In this document: piece by piece, positions 11,687 to 41,445 of the stretch
How the letters are laid out: the number at the start of each line of letters is the position of its first letter
Position numbering within the stretch: position 1 is the stretch's first letter
Source: Chloroflexota bacterium
GTDB lineage: Bacteria > Chloroflexota > Anaerolineae > DTLA01
DNA: 45,799 bases
Assembly (NCBI GenBank): GCA_014360805.1
Contig: JACIWU010000016.1
Span: 1 to 45,799 of the forward strand
Reading direction: 5' to 3'
Program-made: the position numbers and the translations under genes
Notes under the pieces: model-generated
Told to the model about the DNA's origin: nothing
Databases searched by the model: none
What the model saw: the letters and a program-made list of their open reading frames with translations, nothing else

Positions 11687-11770
11687 GCCCGACGCTGAAG
11701 CATCGGGCTGAACGGGCGAAGCCCTGCGGGCTGGCGTCATCCACGAATAACACGAATCTACACGAATGGG
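11687..11770. repeat. Interspersed repeats (CCCGACGCT palindrome and CACGAAT motif)
   Basis: GCCCGACGCT-GAAG-CATCGGGC forms an imperfect palindrome (11687-11708). It is followed by the ACGAATAACACGAATCTACACGAATGGG motif that recurs at about 14680, 26640, 32340, 35300, 35480 and 41270. Confidence 0.7.
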
Positions 11771-14552: not shown

Positions 14553-14596
14553 GGGGTCTGGCAGCAACCTCGTGCAGGCCGGCTTGCAAAGCGAGC

Positions 14597-14875
14597 GTAG
14601 GGCAGGTTTCCGTACCTGCCCCCTGCCCACGGCGACTATGGAAAGCCGCCCTACATGTCTTCCATCCTCCATTCGTGTGGATTCGTGTTATTCGTGGATA
14701 GCGGTTACCGAGCGTAGGGCAGGTTCCCATACCTGCCCCTGCATCCGGCGGCTATGGAAAGCCGCCCTACGTGCTTACTGTGACCGCGAATGCACGCGAA
14801 TCACGCGAATGGGAAACCGTAGGGCAGGTTTCCACGCCTGCCCCGGCCTACGGCGGCTATGGAAAGCCGCCCCAC
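14597..14875. repeat. Three copies of the two-hairpin interspersed repeat
   Basis: Copies at 14597-14654, 14714-14770 and 14819-14875 follow the plan GTAGGGCAGG-loop-CCTGCCC, short spacer, GGCGGC-loop-GCCGCCCTAC. They are separated by ATTCGTG-type or CGCGAAT-type tandem motifs. Further copies lie at 21143-21200 and in 26196-26477; partial ones are at 31982-32015, 35397-35430 and about 41322-41367. No coding sequence is seen in this 445-base gap. Confidence 0.85.
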
Positions 14876-14898
14876 GTGTCTCCCGAAGGTGGGCGGCG

Positions 14899-16200
14899 TC
14901 AAGCGGATTGCGCCAACTTGCGCGGCTCCACCAGGCGCGCCGTCAGCCACAGCGCGGGCAGAAGTCCCAGTGCGGTGAGGGCGAACAGCGGCTCATACGA
15001 CACGGCGCTCGCCAGCGCGCCCCCGAGGAGCGGGAAAGCAATGATGACGCTGGTGAGGGTGTTGCTCAACCCGACGTAGATGGGCCGCTTGCTTTCGGGC
15101 GAAATCTCCAGCAGGTAGTTCATGTGGCCCAACATGAACGAACTGTTGAGCGCGCCGAGCGAGGCGAACAGCAGGAGATAGACACCCGCGAACCACGGCG
15201 AATGGCCGGGCAGGAACACGCCCGCGATCGTGGCCAGCGCCGGCGCGAACAGGGCGATAAACGCCTCCACGCGGGTGGTCAGCCGCCCCCCGAACCGCTC
15301 CAGAAGGTACCCGCCCAGGATGGAGTACAGGAAGCCGCCCACGATCTGCGCCGACAGGAAAAGCCCGATGGTCCCTGTGGGCACCCCTTTCTGGTTGATG
15401 GCGTACACCGCGTAGAACGGCGATGAAAGCGAAGTCAGCCCCAGCAGCAGCCGAATGGCGGAGATGGTGCGAAAATTCGCGTCGCCGCGCCAGATGGCGC
15501 CGAGTTCGCGCGCGTAGTCTCGGAGAGTCAGCGCGGCGTCGTCCACCGGGCAGGGGGTCTCGCGGATGTTGGCGCAGAACAGAAGCGAAAGGGCAAGAAA
15601 GCCCGCCGCCGCAAGAAACAGCGAGGCATAATTGGCCGGATAGGCGAGCGGGCTGCCGTCGCCCAGGATGTACCCGACGAGGCCGCCCACCCCCGTGGTC
15701 AACAGGGCGCTCACGACCTGCGTTATCCCGATGAACCGCCCCCGGCGCGTGGGGGGAATGGCTCTGCTGAACAGGTCAAACCACGCGACGCTGGCGATGC
15801 CATCGCACACGTTGAAGATGCCGAACCCCGCGAGGATGATGGCCGCCACCAGCGCGGGCCGCGACTCGGCGAGCCAGAACAGGGCCAGCGCGCCGAGGAT
15901 GAACATAGGCCGCCCGAAGAGGGACGGGACGATGATCGCCGGCTTCTTGCACGGCAGGCGGCTGACGTGGCCCGCGGCGAATAACTGCGGCAGCAGCCAC
16001 CCGCCCGAGGCCAGCGTGCTGACCAGGCCCACGGCGATGGGCGACCCGGACAGGCGGTCCACCAGCGTGGGGAGAACCGTGCTGGCGCTGACGAACGTCA
16101 TGGCCAGGCCGAAACTGATCCAGTCGCCCATCAAGGCGACGGCGTTCCATCGGTAGTTTGTGGGCAAGATTGTCGTCGTGTCGTGTGTGTTGTTCGCCAT
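14899..16200 (-). CDS. MFS family transporter
   Basis: A 433-residue inner-membrane protein with about 12 hydrophobic segments in two six-helix halves and a central cytoplasmic loop (about 195-225). A basic loop of MFS type (PPTRRGRFIG) follows helix 4. The substrate is not evident. I start at the ATG at 16200 (MANNTHDTTT) with GGAGAAGGA just upstream; the longer open frame continues into repeat-derived sequence. It stands alone between two repeat-filled gaps, so context does not reveal its role. Confidence 0.88.
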   Translation of the reverse strand: MANNTHDTTTILPTNYRWNAVALMGDWISFGLAMTFVSASTVLPTLVDRLSGSPIAVGLVSTLASGGWLLPQLFAAGHVSRLPCKKPAIIVPSLFGRPMFILGALALFWLAESRPALVAAIILAGFGIFNVCDGIASVAWFDLFSRAIPPTRRGRFIGITQVVSALLTTGVGGLVGYILGDGSPLAYPANYASLFLAAAGFLALSLLFCANIRETPCPVDDAALTLRDYARELGAIWRGDANFRTISAIRLLLGLTSLSSPFYAVYAINQKGVPTGTIGLFLSAQIVGGFLYSILGGYLLERFGGRLTTRVEAFIALFAPALATIAGVFLPGHSPWFAGVYLLLFASLGALNSSFMLGHMNYLLEISPESKRPIYVGLSNTLTSVIIAFPLLGGALASAVSYEPLFALTALGLLPALWLTARLVEPRKLAQSA

Positions 16201-16332: not shown

Positions 16333-16842
16333 CACCTCACTCCCGGCCTTCGGCTGCCCCCTCGCCGTGGGCAGAGATGTGGAGCAAATTGACAATTTGC
16401 TCCACGCGAGTAGGGGGTGAATCGCCGCATCGTCGCGCGGGGCCAAACCCTCGCGCTAGGGGCGTTTGGAGCGCGAAGGACGCGAAAGGGCGCGAAAGCC
16501 GCGTCCGGCTGGCGCGCGGGGCTAAACCCCCGCGCTGAAAGAACAAAGCCCCTTCGGGGCTTCGCCCGTTCAGCCCGATGCTTTAGCGTCGGGCGGGTTG
16601 CAGATGCACCTCACCCCCGGCCTTCGGCTGCCCCCTCGCCGTGGGCGGAGATGTGGAGCAAATTGCCAATCTGATCCACGCGAGTAGGGGGTGAATCGCC
16701 GCATGCCCGCGCGAGGCCAAAGAGGCCAAACCCTCGCGCTAGGGGCGAAGGTTGCGTATCGCGTAGGGGCGACCGGCCGGTCGCCCCTGCAGCCAGCCCG
16801 ATGCTTTAGCGTCGGGCGGGTTGCAGATGCACCTCAGCCCCA
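16333..16842. repeat. Repeat-filled gap with a duplicated 130-140 bp unit
   Basis: A unit at 16333-16464 recurs at 16607-16747. It begins CACCTCAC, passes through GCCTTCGGCTGCCCCCTCGCCG, and ends CCCTCGCGCTAGGGGCG. The first copy contains a perfect 27-base palindrome (16379-16405, GTGGAGCAAATTG / CAATTTGCTCCAC); in the second copy it has decayed. CCCGATGCTTTAGCGTCGGGCGGG occurs at about 16575 and 16798. No gene is visible between 16201 and 16963. Confidence 0.8.
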
Positions 16843-17938: not shown

Positions 17939-18982
17939 CTACAGAAGGCCGGACATGGTCAGGGCCATGACGGCCTTTTGCACGTGCAGGCGATTCTCGG
18001 CCACGTCGTAGATGCAGGAGCGCGGGCCGCTGGCGACCTCGTCGGTAACTTCGTGGCCGCGGTCTATGGGCATCGGGTGGGTGAAGATCGCGTTGTCGGT
18101 CAGCCGCATCTTCTCGGCGTCGCAAATCCACTCGGTGAGTTTCAGCGCCCGCTCAATCTCCTGCTGCTTGAGGAACTCGCCGTCCTTGTACGCCTCGGGA
18201 CTCATCCAGTGGCGCGAATACACCACGTGAGCGCCCACATACCCCTCGCGCACGTCGGTGGTCTCTTCAAACGCGGTGCCGTTGGCGCGGCAGTTGGCCT
18301 TCGTCCACTCAATGACCTGGGGGTCCAGCGTATACCCCTCGGGGTGGGCCAGGGTTACGTGCATGCCATAGCGCGAGCCGATGAGCAGCGCCTCCTGCAC
18401 CGAGCACCACGAGCGCGCCAGCGCCCCGTGGCCCCAGGTAACGAGCAATTTCTTGCCCTTCAGCACGCTCATGTCCAGGCCCTGCCCAGGCCCCTTGCCG
18501 TACCACTCGGCCCAGCCCATGATGTCGGCCAGGCCCTGGAACGGGTGGTACTTGTCGTGCGCCATGGAGAAGACCGGCATCCTGGCCCAGTAGGCGTACT
18601 CGCGGATGAGGTCGTCGCCCTCGCCATACGCGCCGATCTTGTCCTCCAGGATGCGGATGCCCAGGCCAGCGGCGTAGCGATCCATCACCTTGGCGGCATC
18701 CTCCACCGTCTCGCCCGCGCTCGTGGCCGTCTTCAGGCGCATGGCCTTCGGCTCCAGGAACTGGGCGTGGCCGCCGAGTTCGGTGGCCGCGCACTCAAAA
18801 CTCTGGCGCGTGCGCACCGACGGGTTGTAGAAGAACATGAAGAACGTCTTGTTCTGCAGCAGGCTCGTGAACCGAGGGTTGAAGCGGTCGCGCTTCATCT
18901 TGGCCGCCAGGTCCAGCACGGCGTTCAATTCGTCTTCGCTCCACTCCTGCGTCGTAATCAGGTCCTTGCCATAGAGATCCAT
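17939..18982 (-). CDS. Carbamoyltransferase, YgeW-like (paralogue 1)
   Basis: A 347-residue member of the aspartate/ornithine carbamoyltransferase superfamily. The carbamoyl-phosphate site is NPSVRTRQSFE. The second-half substrate motif reads FTHPMPIDRGHEVTDEV, i.e. HPMP rather than the HCLP of ornithine transcarbamylases. The WICDAEKMRLT and ENRLHVQKAVMALTM segments are nearly identical to those of the neighbouring paralogue. It resembles the knotted YgeW type linked to ureido/purine degradation. The start at 18982 (MDLYGKDLIT) has GGGAGG upstream. The substrate is not settled. Confidence 0.85.
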   Translation of the reverse strand: MDLYGKDLITTQEWSEDELNAVLDLAAKMKRDRFNPRFTSLLQNKTFFMFFYNPSVRTRQSFECAATELGGHAQFLEPKAMRLKTATSAGETVEDAAKVMDRYAAGLGIRILEDKIGAYGEGDDLIREYAYWARMPVFSMAHDKYHPFQGLADIMGWAEWYGKGPGQGLDMSVLKGKKLLVTWGHGALARSWCSVQEALLIGSRYGMHVTLAHPEGYTLDPQVIEWTKANCRANGTAFEETTDVREGYVGAHVVYSRHWMSPEAYKDGEFLKQQEIERALKLTEWICDAEKMRLTDNAIFTHPMPIDRGHEVTDEVASGPRSCIYDVAENRLHVQKAVMALTMSGLL

Positions 18983-19016
18983 CTTCGGCCTCCCAACAGG
19001 AAGTTTCAAGAATCGG

Positions 19017-19094
19017 CCCACCGCAGAAGCCACGGAGCACGCAGAGGGAGAAAAGCCTTCCTCCCTCCGCAATCTGCGCGCTCTGCGGTGAGCC
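19017..19094. repeat. Inverted repeat between the two carbamoyltransferases
   Basis: CCACCGCAGAAGCC...ACGCAGAGGGAG and its imperfect inverse (CTCCCTCCGC...CTCTGCGGTGAG) form a long hairpin in the 132-base gap. This is another interspersed family, of the CACCGCAGAG type, also seen at about 41381-41440. It could reduce or process read-through inside the operon; no T-run makes it a terminator. Confidence 0.6.
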
Positions 19095-19114: not shown

Positions 19115-20185
19115 TTAGGCCATCACCAGGCTCATGACGGCCTTCTGGACGTGCAGGCGGTTCTCCGCCTCGTCGTAGGCCGCCGAGAGCCACGGGCGCT
19201 CCTTGGAGCGGGTCGTGTTGTCAATGACTTCGTCGGTTACCTCGTACCCGCGGTCGCAGGGCAGGCAGTGCAGGTAGATGCTCTCGGGATCCGTCAGGCG
19301 CATCTTCTCGGCGTCGCAAATCCAGTCCTTGTGGCTGTCAAAGATTTGCTGGGTCTTCTTGGGGTCGTCCTGCCCGACGGGGGGCTTGAAGATGGGCGTA
19401 GCGCACCAGGCCTTGGGATAGACGACGTGCGCGCCCTTGAACGCCTCGCGCATGTCGTGGCTGATCTTGAACGAGCCGCCGTTGTGGCGCGCGTTGGTCT
19501 CGCAGGCCGCCAGCACCTCGGGATCCAGTTCCATGCCCTCGGGATGGGCCAGGGTAACGTTCATGCCCATCATGGTGGCGGCGATGATGGCGCTCTGGGG
19601 CACGGCCCTAGGCTTGTGGATGCTGGGCGAGTAGGCCCAACTCATGACGAAGTTGACGCCATTGAATGTGCCGAACTTCTCCTTGACGGTGAGGATGTCG
19701 GCGAGGGCCTGGAAGGGATGGTACTTGTCGTCCTCCATGTTGAGCACAGGGATGTCGGCCCAGTAGGCGAAATTGCGGATCAGTTCGTTGGCGCCGCCAT
19801 AGACCCAGTCCACGGGGTCGCCGTAGCAGCGGATGGCGATGGCGTCGCCCATGCGCGCCAGCACGCGGGCCACGTCCGAGACGCGCTCGGTGGAATAGGC
19901 CACCTCTTTGCCGGGGAGCGCCGGGGTGTAGATTTTGCCCGGGTCCAGGTAGTGGGCATGGCCGCCCAGTTGCGTCATGCCGGCCTCAAACGAGTTGCGG
20001 GTGCGCAGGCTCTGGTTGTAGAAGATCATGAACAACGTGCGGGCGCGCAGCAGATGGTCGTGAGGCTCGCGCATGGCGTAGCGCCGCTTCAGGTCCAGCG
20101 CCACGTCTAGGATGGTCTCTACCTCTTCGCGGGTCCAATCCAGCAGGGTAATGAAGTCTTTGCCACGGAACGTTTCGGTTTTCAT
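19115..20185 (-). CDS. Carbamoyltransferase, ornithine/YgeW-like (paralogue 2)
   Basis: A 356-residue carbamoyltransferase-superfamily protein, clearly a duplicate of the next gene. The carbamoyl-phosphate loop is NQSLRTRNSFE, and the second motif is YLHCLPCDRGYEVTDEV, with the catalytic HCLP of ornithine-type enzymes. It carries insertions (KIYTPALPGK, KPPVGQDDPKK) not in paralogue 1, so its substrate pocket probably differs. RBS AAGGAGAAGG precedes the ATG at 20185. It lies 40 bases after the GntR regulator gene in the same transcript. Confidence 0.85.
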   Translation of the reverse strand: MKTETFRGKDFITLLDWTREEVETILDVALDLKRRYAMREPHDHLLRARTLFMIFYNQSLRTRNSFEAGMTQLGGHAHYLDPGKIYTPALPGKEVAYSTERVSDVARVLARMGDAIAIRCYGDPVDWVYGGANELIRNFAYWADIPVLNMEDDKYHPFQALADILTVKEKFGTFNGVNFVMSWAYSPSIHKPRAVPQSAIIAATMMGMNVTLAHPEGMELDPEVLAACETNARHNGGSFKISHDMREAFKGAHVVYPKAWCATPIFKPPVGQDDPKKTQQIFDSHKDWICDAEKMRLTDPESIYLHCLPCDRGYEVTDEVIDNTTRSKERPWLSAAYDEAENRLHVQKAVMSLVMA

Positions 20186-21025: not shown

Positions 21026-21114
21026 ATCGCCGGATGCGGGACTCGTCCGCAAGGGTGCTGGGGGCTTCATTGCGGTGCAAGCGGCGCCGAGCAATCTCGT
21101 ATCCCTATTCGTGC

Positions 21115-21243
21115 CCATTCGTGTCATTCGTGGTTACAGAGCGTAGGGCAGGTTTCCATACCTGCCCACGGCCCCCGGCGGCTATGGAAAGCCGCCCTAC
21201 GGGTCTATTCTACATTCGTGCCCATTCGTGTTATTCGCGGTTA
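21115..21243. repeat. Two-hairpin repeat flanked by ATTCGTG motifs
   Basis: A clean copy of the GTAGGGCAGG...GCCGCCCTAC element occupies 21143-21200. Both flanks carry CCCATTCGTG-T-ATTCG(T/C)GGTTAC tandem motifs (21115-21137 and 21218-21243). The gap lies between the divergent start of the GntR operon and the 3' end of efp. Confidence 0.85.
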
Positions 21244-21281
21244 CGACAGCAACAGCCCCCCGCGGGCCGCACAGGCAACGC

Positions 21282-25557: not shown

Positions 25558-26184
25558 GTGCGAATTCTGGCAACGCCCGAGAACCTGGACGAGGCCCTGG
25601 AGCAAGCGGCCCGCATCCTGCGCGACGGCGGCCTGGTGGCATTTCCCACCGACACGGTGTACGGCGTCGGGGCGCTGGTGTTCATGGAGCAGGCGGTGGA
25701 GCGGCTGTTCGCGGCCAAGATTCGCGACCGCGCCAAGGCCATCCCCGTGCTCCTATCCGGTGTGCGCGACCTGAACCGCATCGCCAGGCACGTGCCGCCG
25801 GCGGCCTGGCAACTGGCCGGGGCCTTCTGGCCCGGGGCATTGAGCCTGGTCCTGGAGAAATCCGCGCTCGTCCCCGACGTGGTAACGGCAGGCGGCCCGA
25901 CGGTCGCCGTGCGCGTGCCCGACCATCCGCTGGCCCTGGCGCTGATTGAGCGCGCAGGCTCGCCTCTGGCCACCACCAGCGCGAACCTGTCGGGCCAGCC
26001 CAGCGCCGTAACCGCCGACGAGGTGGAGGCATCCATCGGAGACGCCGTAGACCTTATCCTGGACGGAGGCCCCTGCCCGGGCGGAGTCGCCTCCACCGTG
26101 CTTGACCTCACCGTGCAGCCGCCGCGCATTGTCCGCCCCGGCCCCATCCGCTGGGAGGACCTGGCTCCGCTCCTCGGCGTCTAG
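25558..26184 (+). CDS. tsaC: Threonylcarbamoyl-AMP synthase
   Basis: Makes threonylcarbamoyl-AMP from threonine, bicarbonate and ATP for t6A37 in ANN-decoding tRNAs. The 208-residue, single-domain (YrdC/TsaC-type) protein has GGLVAFPTDTVYGVGA, the basic KIRDRAKAIPVL strand and TTSANLSGQPSAV. There is no C-terminal Sua5 extension. GTG start. The last codons CTCCTCGGCGTCTAG recur almost unchanged 257 bases downstream in the repeat array. Confidence 0.95.
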   Translation: MRILATPENLDEALEQAARILRDGGLVAFPTDTVYGVGALVFMEQAVERLFAAKIRDRAKAIPVLLSGVRDLNRIARHVPPAAWQLAGAFWPGALSLVLEKSALVPDVVTAGGPTVAVRVPDHPLALALIERAGSPLATTSANLSGQPSAVTADEVEASIGDAVDLILDGGPCPGGVASTVLDLTVQPPRIVRPGPIRWEDLAPLLGV

Positions 26185-26195
26185 GCCCCGCGTCT

Positions 26196-26477
26196 GGCGG
26201 CTACGGAAAGCCGCCCTACGTGCTTACTGTAACCGCGAATCACGCGAATGCGCGCGAATGGAAAATAGGGCAGGTTTCCATACCTGCCCCGGCCTACGGC
26301 GGCTATGGAAAGCCGCCCTACGTGCTTACTGTAACCGCGAATCACGCGAATGCGCGCGAATGGAAAATAGGGCAGGTTCCCATACCTGCCCCGGCCTACG
26401 GCGGCTATGGAAAGCCGCCCTACGTGCTCCTCGGTGTCTAGTCCCCGCGTCCGGCGGCTATGGAAAGCCGCCCTACG
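26196..26477. repeat. Tandem array of a 102-bp unit, with extra partial copies
   Basis: Units start at 26196, 26298 and 26400, giving two full 102-base periods plus a partial third. Each unit has GGCGGCTATGGAAAGCCGCC, then CGCGAAT tandem motifs, then TAGGGCAGGTTTCCATACCTGCCC. A further copy of the second hairpin follows a duplicated end of tsaC (26427-26441, then 26453-26476). No gene is seen in 26185-26712. Confidence 0.9.
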
Positions 26478-26498
26478 GACTTTGTGCGAAAATAATGT

Positions 26499-26575
26499 TT
26501 CACACAAAGGCACAGAGACACAAAGGGGGAAAGAGACTCGCAGAAAATCCTCTGTGTCTTCGTGTCTTTGTGTGA
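26499..26575. repeat. Imperfect inverted repeat, ACACAAAGGCACAGAG type
   Basis: TTCACACAAAGGCACAGAGACACA is mirrored by TGTGTCTTCGTGTCTTTGTGTGA about 25 bases on, with a few mismatches. It sits between the tandem array and another hairpin-repeat fragment at 26580-26606, followed by an ATTCGTG block (26625-26653). Confidence 0.8.
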
Positions 26576-26674
26576 GCCTACGGCGGCTACGGAAAGCCGC
26601 CCTACGTGTCTTCATCTATCCTCTATTCGTGTGGATTCGCGTTATTCGCGGATAGCGAGCGTGGGGCTCACCTG

Positions 26675-31979: not shown

Positions 31980-32412
31980 AGCGTAGGGCAGGTTCCCATA
32001 CTGCCCCTCGCCTTCGGCTACGTGTCTCGGTTCTACCACCCGTTAGCGGGACCTGCATGGGCCCGATTGAATTACGCCCCCGCGCATTCCGCAACGCCGC
32101 ACGGTAACGGCGCGGGCGGCACGGCACGGCGCACCTCACCCGCCGCGGGCAAAATGGTAGGGGAACCCGTGGGTCGCTCCCACGCGCCGTGCCCTTTCGC
32201 ACCTCACCCCCAGCCTTCGGCTTCCCCCTCTCCGCGCGGCGGAGAGGGGGAACGAGGGGGTGAGGTCGGCAGGCCCGCGCAGGGCACAGACCAACGCCAG
32301 CCCGATGCTTCCCCGTCTGGCATAATACCCTTCGTGTGGATTCGTGTTATTCGTGGATGACGTCAGCCCGGGTCGCCCCTTCAGCCCGGCGCTTCAGCGT
32401 CGGGCAGGGTTC
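31980..32412. repeat. Repeat-filled gap between yebC and psuK
   Basis: Contains a partial two-hairpin element (31982-32015), a CACCTCACCCCCAGCC...GGAGAGGGGG...GGGGGTGAGG inverted repeat (about 32202-32262), an ATTCGTG tandem block (32331-32357) and an AGCCCGGCGCTTCAGCGTCGGGC palindrome (about 32383-32405). No gene is seen. Confidence 0.75.
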
Positions 32413-35274: not shown

Positions 35275-35640
35275 CATACGCGAACCGGAATCCACGAATC
35301 ACACGAATCCGCACGAATGAGATAACCGGAATCCGCGAATAACACGAATCTACACGAATGGGGGAACATACTGCGTCGCATCTTGGTCGCCGGACACGTA
35401 GGGCGGCTTTCCATAGCCGCCGGAGCCTGCTAACCGCGAATCGCGCGAATCCACGCGAATGGGTAACCGGAATCCGCGAATAACACGAATCTACACGAAT
35501 GGGTAGCATACCCGACGCCGAAGACGGGGGTTTAGCCCCGCGCGGGCATACCGACCTCACCCCCCTCATTCCCTCTCTCCACGGGCGGAGGCCGAAGGCT
35601 GGGGGTGAGGTGCGCCGGCGCGAACCCCGCCCGACGCTGA
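35275..35640. repeat. Repeat-filled gap (CACGAAT tandem blocks and others)
   Basis: CGAATCCACGAATCACACGAATCC-type blocks occur at about 35285-35317, 35330-35360 and 35430-35500. Half of a two-hairpin element lies at 35397-35430, and a CTCACCCC...GGGGGTGAGG inverted element at about 35556-35611. No gene is seen in 35265-35837. Confidence 0.8.
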
Positions 35641-35817: not shown

Positions 35818-35837
35818 CAGCGCAAGTTGAATATCCA

Positions 35838-35983
35838 GGAGCCTTCGGGGCAGGGTGCGGCCTGCGAGTCAGGCCAATTCCCGATCGGCGGTAAGGCCTC
35901 GCTGAGGAGGCCAAGCCCGCGAGCGCAAGCAGATCCGGTGCAAAGCCGGGGCCGACGGTACAGTCCGGAAGGGAGAAGGTTCC
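35838..35983 (+). ncRNA. FMN riboswitch (RFN element)
   Basis: Conserved RFN blocks are all present in order: CTTCGGGGCAGGGTG, AATTCCCGATCGGCGGTAA, AGCCCGCGAGC, ATCCGGTGCAAAGCCGGGGCCGACGGTACAGTCCGGAAGGGAGAAGG. P1 closes between GGAGCCTTC (35838-35846) and GAAGGTTCC (35975-35983), 9 pairs with one G-T. It binds flavin mononucleotide and usually turns expression off. Two variable stems are extended (about 35856-35875 and 35896-35913). Confidence 0.95.
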
Positions 35984-36048
35984 GCAATGGGCAGTGCGCA
36001 TGCCTGGAATTTCCATGCGCCCTGTCGGTTGAATTCCTGCCCCGCTGG

Positions 36049-36071: not shown

Positions 36072-36872
36072 ATGGCCGGAATCTGCCAACCTCAAACCAA
36101 GCCGGACCTGGCGAAGCGGCTGCGGCAGGCGGCAGGCCGCGCGGCGGGTGCGATCCTAGGTGTGCTGGGCTTCCTCGCAGTGTGGGGCGGCCTGGTCGCG
36201 CTGCTGAAGTATCCGCCGTTTATCCTCCCTGGGCCTGGGCGCGTCTGGTCGCGCTTCCTCGTCGCGGTCGCCGATGGCTCGCTGTGGTACCACACATCGC
36301 TCACGCTGTTTGAAATCTTCGCGGGCCTCCTGCTGGGCGTGAGCGTTGCCACCCTGCTGGGATACATCATCGCCAAGTCGCCCACGCTGGACCGCCTGCT
36401 GTCGCCCTACATCGTCGCGGCCCAGGCAGTTCCCATCGTTGCCCTGGCGCCGTTGCTGGTCATCTGGTTCGGCTTCGGGAGCGTCTCCAAGATTCTGGTC
36501 TGCGCGCTGACGCTGTTCTTGCCCGTGCTCATCAATACTGCCGTCGGCATCCGCTCGGTGGATCGCAACCTGCGCGAACTGATGCGGTCGCTGGGCGCGT
36601 CGCGATGGCAGACGTTTCGGATGCTGGAAGTGCCCGCCGCGCTGCCCGTGCTGTTCGGGGGGCTGAAAATCGGCGCGACGCTGTCGGTCATCGGCGCGGT
36701 CGTGGGCGAATTCGTCGGCGCCGACAGGGGACTGGGGTTTCTGATCAACCTGGCGCGGGGGCTGTTTGACACGCCCCTGCTCTTCGTCGCGCTGTTCACC
36801 CTTGTGGCGATCGCGCTGTCGCTCTACGGCGCGATCTCGCTCGTTGAGGCCGCTCTGCTGCGGCATCGGTAA
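36072..36872 (+). CDS. ribX: ABC transporter permease, riboflavin-type (RibX-like)
   Basis: A 266-residue inner-membrane permease of the BPD type with about six helices and the EAA loop RELMRSLGASRWQTFRMLEVPAALP that docks on the ATPase. It is related to SsuC/TauC/ThiX permeases. The FMN riboswitch immediately upstream points to flavin or a flavin precursor as substrate, matching the predicted RibXY transporters of Chloroflexi. The ATG is unusually close to the terminator T-run. Confidence 0.85.
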   Translation: MAGICQPQTKPDLAKRLRQAAGRAAGAILGVLGFLAVWGGLVALLKYPPFILPGPGRVWSRFLVAVADGSLWYHTSLTLFEIFAGLLLGVSVATLLGYIIAKSPTLDRLLSPYIVAAQAVPIVALAPLLVIWFGFGSVSKILVCALTLFLPVLINTAVGIRSVDRNLRELMRSLGASRWQTFRMLEVPAALPVLFGGLKIGATLSVIGAVVGEFVGADRGLGFLINLARGLFDTPLLFVALFTLVAIALSLYGAISLVEAALLRHR

Positions 36873-41184: not shown

Positions 41185-41239
41185 AAGGGCGCGACAGCAT
41201 CCGAACAGTCCCGTCCCCAGAACCCGATTTGCGCGGATT

Positions 41240-41445
41240 CGCGGTTAGCGGTTACCTCATTCGTGTTATTCGTGGATTGCGTTTACCCCAATTCGCGTGG
41301 ATTCGCGGTTCCCACAGCCGCCGGGGGCAGAGGGGCCGGGGCAGGTATGGGAACCTGCCCTACGTGCTTACGAGATTCTCACCGCAGAGACCGGCGAGAA
41401 CGCGGAGATTTCGGGGTAAATCTCTGTGGTCTCCGCTTGCCCCGC
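41240..41445. repeat. Interspersed repeats before mnmG
   Basis: ATTCGTGTTATTCGTGGATT and AATTCGCGTGGATTCGCGG blocks lie at about 41261-41312. Part of a two-hairpin element with the loops GGCAGGTATGGGAACCTGCCCTACG is at about 41341-41366. An imperfect inverted repeat of the CACCGCAGAGA type (41381-41440) follows. No gene is seen in 40981-41649. Confidence 0.75.

Follow-up and report, generated by a model that had tools for sequence, protein, structure and literature searches.

We consider it quite likely that the element repeated at positions 14597 to 14875 of the window (the whole stretch of 45,799 nucleotides of a Chloroflexota bacterium that was analysed) is a REPIN, a head-to-head pair of GTAG-tagged REP hairpins that probably spreads as a non-autonomous single-strand DNA element. 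Its membership in the GTAG REPs and in the inverted-doublet REPINs is well supported: the foot tetranucleotide and the many extragenic palindrome copies of the former were both found, and the inverted REP doublet of the latter is the common unit here (75 pairs among 212 units). Read on its own strand, REP-A is GTAG-GGCAGG-TTTCCATA-CCTGCC and REP-B is GTAG-GGCGGC-TTTCCATA-GCCGCC. The two have in common the GTAG foot, a GC-rich stem of 6 bp and the loop TTTCCATA, whereas two compensated base pairs distinguish their stems. A dimer consists of a plus-strand A and, after a spacer of 1–12 bases, a minus-strand B; the two units are placed head to head and each outer end carries GTAG. The GTAG foot was present in 75 of the 116 A-type and 95 of the 121 B-type matches, the remainder being mostly one-base variants, shifted reads or degenerate matches.

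The first-pass annotation had described two hairpins with complementary loops and pairing outer ends, and both the hairpins and the GTAGGGC/GCCCTAC match are present. Its second hairpin is REP-B on the minus strand, i.e., the unit of the first hairpin inverted, and the A and B loops are complementary because both hairpins are one unit in opposite orientation. Between inverted repeats complementary loops are expected by default and provide no evidence of kissing; what supports the stem is the pair of compensated differences by which A and B are told apart.

The interval 14597–14875, which had been taken for a single element, consists of three tandem dimers of 57–58 bp. Copy 1 (14597–14654, plus strand) has REP-A (+) at 14597–14620 with the loop TTTCCGTA and REP-B (−) at 14631–14654, whose stem GGCGAC/GCCGCC has one mismatch. 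Copy 2 (14714–14770, plus strand) has REP-A (+) at 14714–14737 with the loop TTCCCATA and REP-B (−) at 14747–14770, and copy 3 (14819–14875, plus strand) has REP-A (+) at 14819–14842 with the loop TTTCCACG and REP-B (−) at 14852–14875 with the foot GTGG. Copy 4 (21143–21200, plus strand) is a perfect consensus in both A and B. Copy 5 (26265–26321, plus strand), with REP-A (+) at 26265–26288 and REP-B (−) at 26298–26321, and copy 6 (26367–26423, plus strand), with REP-A (+) at 26367–26390 and REP-B (−) at 26400–26423, both carry the foot ATAG on A; copy 6 is a tandem 102-bp repeat of copy 5 including its flank. The expectation of at least six copies agrees with the six head-to-head dimers located in the window. 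In addition, solo REP-B units lie at 26196–26219 (−, loop TTTCCGTA), 26453–26476 (−), 26582–26605 (−, loop TTTCCGTA) and 35398–35421 (+), and solo REP-A units at 31983–32005 (+, decayed, one stem base missing) and 41340–41363 (−, loop TTCCCATA). The loop TTTCCATA occurs 11 times in the window, counting both strands, compared with 0.24 expected in shuffles. That the two loops are exact reverse complements holds at 21143–21200 and, with the ATAG foot, at 26265–26321; it fails in all three dimers of 14597–14875, where the variant A loops named above oppose the B loop TTTCCATA.

The window holds other repeats as well. GTAG palindromes of another family, GTAGGGGCGAC...GTCGCCC, lie at 65–92 and 16763–16790. 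An intergenic direct repeat of 115 bp, 92% identical, was found at 16333–16447 and 16607–16721, near a repeated hairpin-like sequence (CAGCCCGATGCTTTAGCGTCGGGCGGG). The adjacent genes at 17939–19033 and 19115–20185 contain repeated stretches that are 70–82% alike, probably from a tandem duplication.

In the own genome of the window (3.24 Mb, 154 contigs), 98 exact A-type hairpins were counted, together with 363 A/B-like units at up to three mismatches; the control with the reversed pattern gave 0 in both searches. Pairing was analysed over 249,949 bp, comprising the surroundings of the A hairpins, the three Y1 genes and the window. This yielded 243 matches, of which 31 that were untypable or failed a stricter stem filter were dropped before pairing and 212 (106 A and 106 B) were retained. 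The 75 head-to-head pairs no more than 80 bp apart comprised 74 A-B pairs, one B-B pair and no A-A pair, and their start-to-start distance was mostly 32–34 bp. Because the loci were chosen through exact A hairpins, the absence of A-A pairs is meaningful, and B-B pairs and solo B units are possibly under-counted. Members of dimers were closer to the consensus than units outside dimers (mean mismatches 1.15 against 2.88 for A and 0.66 against 3.64 for B), a difference that weakened to p = 0.055 (A) and p = 0.068 (B) after removal of very degenerate matches. A repeat at which an assembly breaks might be suspected of being a product of assembly or of chance, and 18 of the 98 exact A hairpins are indeed no more than 300 bp away from a contig end, compared with 2.8 expected. 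The empty reversed-pattern controls and the recurrence of the element in independently assembled, named MAGs speak against this, and we regard such an origin as hardly credible.

The number of units at up to three mismatches was far lower in two congeners of the same genus, with 23 and 13. At least one exact unit was found in 9 of the 60 relatives searched, and, in a sample of 400 genomes of the phylum, 2 had the exact dimer, the own genome included; the distribution across Chloroflexota is therefore patchy. The exact heterodimer was found in the Anaerolineales MAGs E26_bin7 (G048), which belongs to the same class as the window's genome and has 40 units at up to three mismatches, and Yes70-19, and in the Chloroflexus MAG DR5_57_13. 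The class shared with G048 makes Anaerolineae the probable class of the window's genome. Stems, loop and foot are identical but the spacers different in these three genomes and in a further relative, G058. Such identity of the hairpins beside differing spacers indicates constraint on the hairpins and none on the spacer. In four of the five dimers read in G048 (loci L126, L127, L129 and L130), the REPIN is central in a larger palindrome (TAGTTTCTGTCTGGAAA ... GTTTCCAGACAAGAACTA), which is comparable to the dimers nested in palindromes described in section 7 of Di Nocera et al. 2013 (PMC3733652).

The comparison of orthologous sites with the two congeners (G001 and G002) covered the 21143 site and the 26169–26611 cluster, the first cluster (14.6–14.9 kb) being unusable because synteny breaks there. 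At both sites the neighbouring genes are kept in the congeners with 82–93% identity, and no A/B dimer was found at the orthologous sites of either. The gap between the conserved blocks is 248 bp here and 78 bp in each congener at 21143, and 493 bp here compared with 113 and 142 bp in the congeners at 26169–26611. The extra DNA at 21143 consists of ATTCGTG arrays plus the REPIN, so that the unit inserted there may exceed the REPIN core. At the site orthologous to 26169–26611 both congeners carry a different GTAG palindrome, GTAGGGGCAATTCATGAATTGCCCCTAC. It was also observed that the synteny break relative to both congeners coincides with the first REPIN cluster (14556–14911). Carriage by a phage or plasmid was considered and rejected, as the dimer had no match among viral contigs or plasmids.

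A search for a linked transposase, as proposed in the first-pass annotation, was successful in a relative and not in the own genome. The own genome encodes three Y1 proteins, one of the IS200 type and two passing the NCBIfam RAYT model (97.6 and 86.1 bits). No A/B units occur within 1.5 kb of these three genes, and the search of the own genome gave no cognate RAYT flanked by A/B units, although one could be concealed by the breaks of the assembly at the repeat. One of its RAYTs (C87) shows no alignment to Gln95 and Arg104, residues of E. coli TnpA-REP that section 23 of Corneloup et al. 2021 (PMC8266576) names among the GTAG contacts. In G058, an intact RAYT of 182 aa was found (NF047646, 149.4 bits), which aligns with E. 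coli TnpA-REP (PDB 4ER8) over 157 residues (E = 5e-26) and has the HxH histidine pair and the equivalents of Tyr115, Gln95 and Arg104. At 57 bp past the stop codon there is an A-B dimer with a single altered base, and a decayed dimer is located farther out; by our reading another decayed dimer lies immediately upstream of the gene. Since G058 has just 29 units at up to three mismatches in 5.0 Mb, we judge it unlikely that this linkage, a single case, arose by chance. No A/B unit was found within about 1 kb of the G048 Y1 genes in the loci read, and none flanks the RAYT-like genes in the genomes of loci L165, L170 and L171. Other RAYTs of the class (G028, G021, G031 and G007) adjoin GTAG hairpins with different stems, which fits a co-evolution of enzyme and REP. 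Over 30 RAYT loci, 27 GTAG hairpins were counted compared with 3.6 in shuffles, 13 of the 27 coming from one locus.

The GTAG foot, the inverted doublets, the high copy number, the excess over the congeners and the presence of these dimers on both sides of a RAYT in a relative thus bear out the earlier suggestion of a structured mobile element of the REP/RAYT-like kind. Movement driven by a RAYT is likely, on the basis of one linked case and of what is known of the family. In single-stranded DNA, each arm would fold on the strand that bears its GTAG, and a HUH/Y1 transposase of the RAYT (TnpA-REP) type would bind foot, stem and loop. The enzyme is predicted to nick beside the hairpin, and the nicked unit would then be copied or joined at another site. 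A RAYT of the G058 type may have moved the copies present here.

The flanks of the copies offer a different account, in which the REPIN is immobile here and is copied as a passenger inside larger repeats, either a GTGTAT...TTTCGGTGGAAA composite or the CGAAT/ATTCGTG arrays. Arrays flank at least one side of 41 of the 74 dimers and composite flanks were found at 20 of the 74, some of which are also array-flanked; moreover, tandem copies bring their flanks along, as in the 102-bp repeat at 26186–26389. The composite has the form GTGTATACATTTCGGTGGAAA...REPIN...TTTCCACCGAA...ATACAC with inverted-repeat-like ends and surrounds the dimers of loci L066, L067, L065, L025, L048 and others; its pattern matched 20 times in the own genome, 21 times in G058 and 0–2 times in five other genomes. 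Yet no one context fits all copies, 12 of the 74 dimers having none of those tested, and the core has different flanks in other genomes. Conservation also falls off beyond GTAG/CTAC, save for a short GAGC on the left and G plus a few bases on the right. Thus, we think it unlikely that the REPIN is only a passenger. The ATTCGTG/CGAAT arrays themselves are short, with a period of about 10–11 bases, are numerous also in both congeners and often lie beside REPINs; in the window they were found at 11731–11770, 14658–14703, 21094–21246, 26223–26262, 35282–35503 and 41228–41287.

A role as an RNA element, through kissing hairpins or through a transcribed hairpin acting as a terminator or mRNA 3′-end stabiliser, was also weighed. 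Loop covariation, the check proposed in the first-pass annotation for its two kissing hairpins, was run over the 74 A-B pairs, and loop complementarity is not maintained. Both loops were at consensus in 32 pairs and at least one loop was changed in 42, and a compensating change was found in none of the 74, compared with a mean of 1.35 under random re-pairing. Loop position 3 by itself accounts for 17 changes in A and 8 in B, and no pair carries a change there in both members. By the refuting condition that the first-pass annotation had set, the kissing-loop structure is rejected on these pairs, the match of the loops being explained by the inversion of one unit. The stem changes among copies (0 compensated, 6 one-sided that still pair and 18 pair-breaking) are uninformative for the stems; the scan demanded near-consensus stems and at least 5 of the 8 loop bases, and stem percentages are therefore biased towards pairing. 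The single long cruciform that had been offered as the other fold is also interrupted, with the same internal positions unpaired in nearly every copy: a Watson–Crick pair is present at position 8 in 1 of the 74 copies and at positions 10 and 19 in none, and 73 of them have a G-T wobble at position 21.

The genomic context gives the RNA role some footing. With our simple gene caller, 53 of the 74 dimers were placed, the 21 at locus edges being left out, and every one of them was intergenic (33 co-directional, 19 divergent, 1 convergent and 0 inside genes). Of the 42 distinct regions, 26 are co-directional, 15 divergent and 1 convergent; the arm that points to the upstream gene is B in 21 of the co-directional ones and A in 5 (p = 0.0025, post hoc), and the bias is 13 against 4 without the composite. 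Strand-specific insertion or selection at the transcript level could underlie this bias. The long hairpin is stable under RNA parameters (−32 to −35 kcal/mol), and secondary RNA roles of REPs are known, as described by Di Nocera et al. (PMC3733652). On the other hand, the loops show no compensation, and the 15 divergent regions are without any gene end. Terminator-like sites show no enrichment (12 were found, with 7.8 expected, and only 2 of the 12 overlap A/B hairpins), so that a terminator identity was rejected, and no Rfam family reaches its gathering score over the A/B hairpins, which speaks against a known RNA family. We consider a function in RNA very unlikely as an explanation of the repeat. 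Rfam matches at the gathering score in the whole window are limited to two tRNAs and an FMN riboswitch; the latter (35837–35984, 89 bits) lies upstream of an ABC-transporter permease gene (36072–36872), possibly of a riboflavin transporter.

The REPIN described here is close to systems already known. Like the GTAG REP superfamily of Di Nocera et al. (PMC3733652), it has a GTAG foot, a 6-bp stem and intergenic inverted dimers with GTAG outside. The same paper describes heterodimers with different stems, e.g., GTAG-24 of P. aeruginosa, and GTAG repeats in Chloroflexi, such as GTAG-23 of T. roseum. In contrast to the superfamily as described there, the loop here is the 8-base TTTCCATA and nearly all pairs have one fixed stem pair across genomes; these two fixed stem types also differ from the homodimers of two like REPs in its section 14. 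Bertels and Rainey 2011 (PMC3116915) described the REPIN as an inverted, spaced REP doublet that is intergenic and multi-copy, as here, with doublets nearer to the consensus than singlets, a tendency that is weak in our data; unlike their REPINs, ours is without a linked RAYT in its own genome. The short perfect palindromes and the loop recognition of the group 3 RAYTs in Corneloup et al. (PMC8266576) may be analogous, whereas the REPs flanking the G058 RAYT differ from those of the TnpA-REP and group 3 systems described there in having another stem and a longer loop. Section 17 of the same paper states that group 3 RAYTs require particular loop bases, and by analogy such a requirement would explain a conserved loop without kissing. 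The exact A and B sequences were not found in the text of the literature searched. We report the element as a putative new family of GTAG-REP heterodimers, additional to the 24 published families and belonging to a kind of element already known.

The strict asymmetry between A and B, conserved across families, is the most interesting aspect of this element. Under DNA parameters, the best folds of the A-B heterodimer are a pair of separate hairpins or a long hairpin with interruptions, with energies of about −17 to −20 kcal/mol that vary with the spacer. A-A or B-B homodimers would form a single long hairpin of about −29 to −34 kcal/mol; under RNA parameters the long form is favoured in all cases. 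The difference between the stems probably lets two short hairpins compete with one long hairpin. It is possible, and we put it forward only tentatively, that the asymmetry is a selected device and that the heterodimer is poised between the long hairpin and two GTAG hairpins readable by a RAYT. If so, the dimer would be a conserved two-state DNA substrate and not a decayed homodimer, its stems and loop being constant in several Chloroflexota genomes while its spacers vary. Di Nocera et al. noted in section 14 (PMC3733652) that there is no obvious explanation of why REP dimers are often heterodimers. Our finding adds a well-populated GTAG-REP/REPIN family in the little-studied Chloroflexota and provides a clean case for this question, as the rule has hardly any exception, concerns two base pairs and is shared by several genomes.
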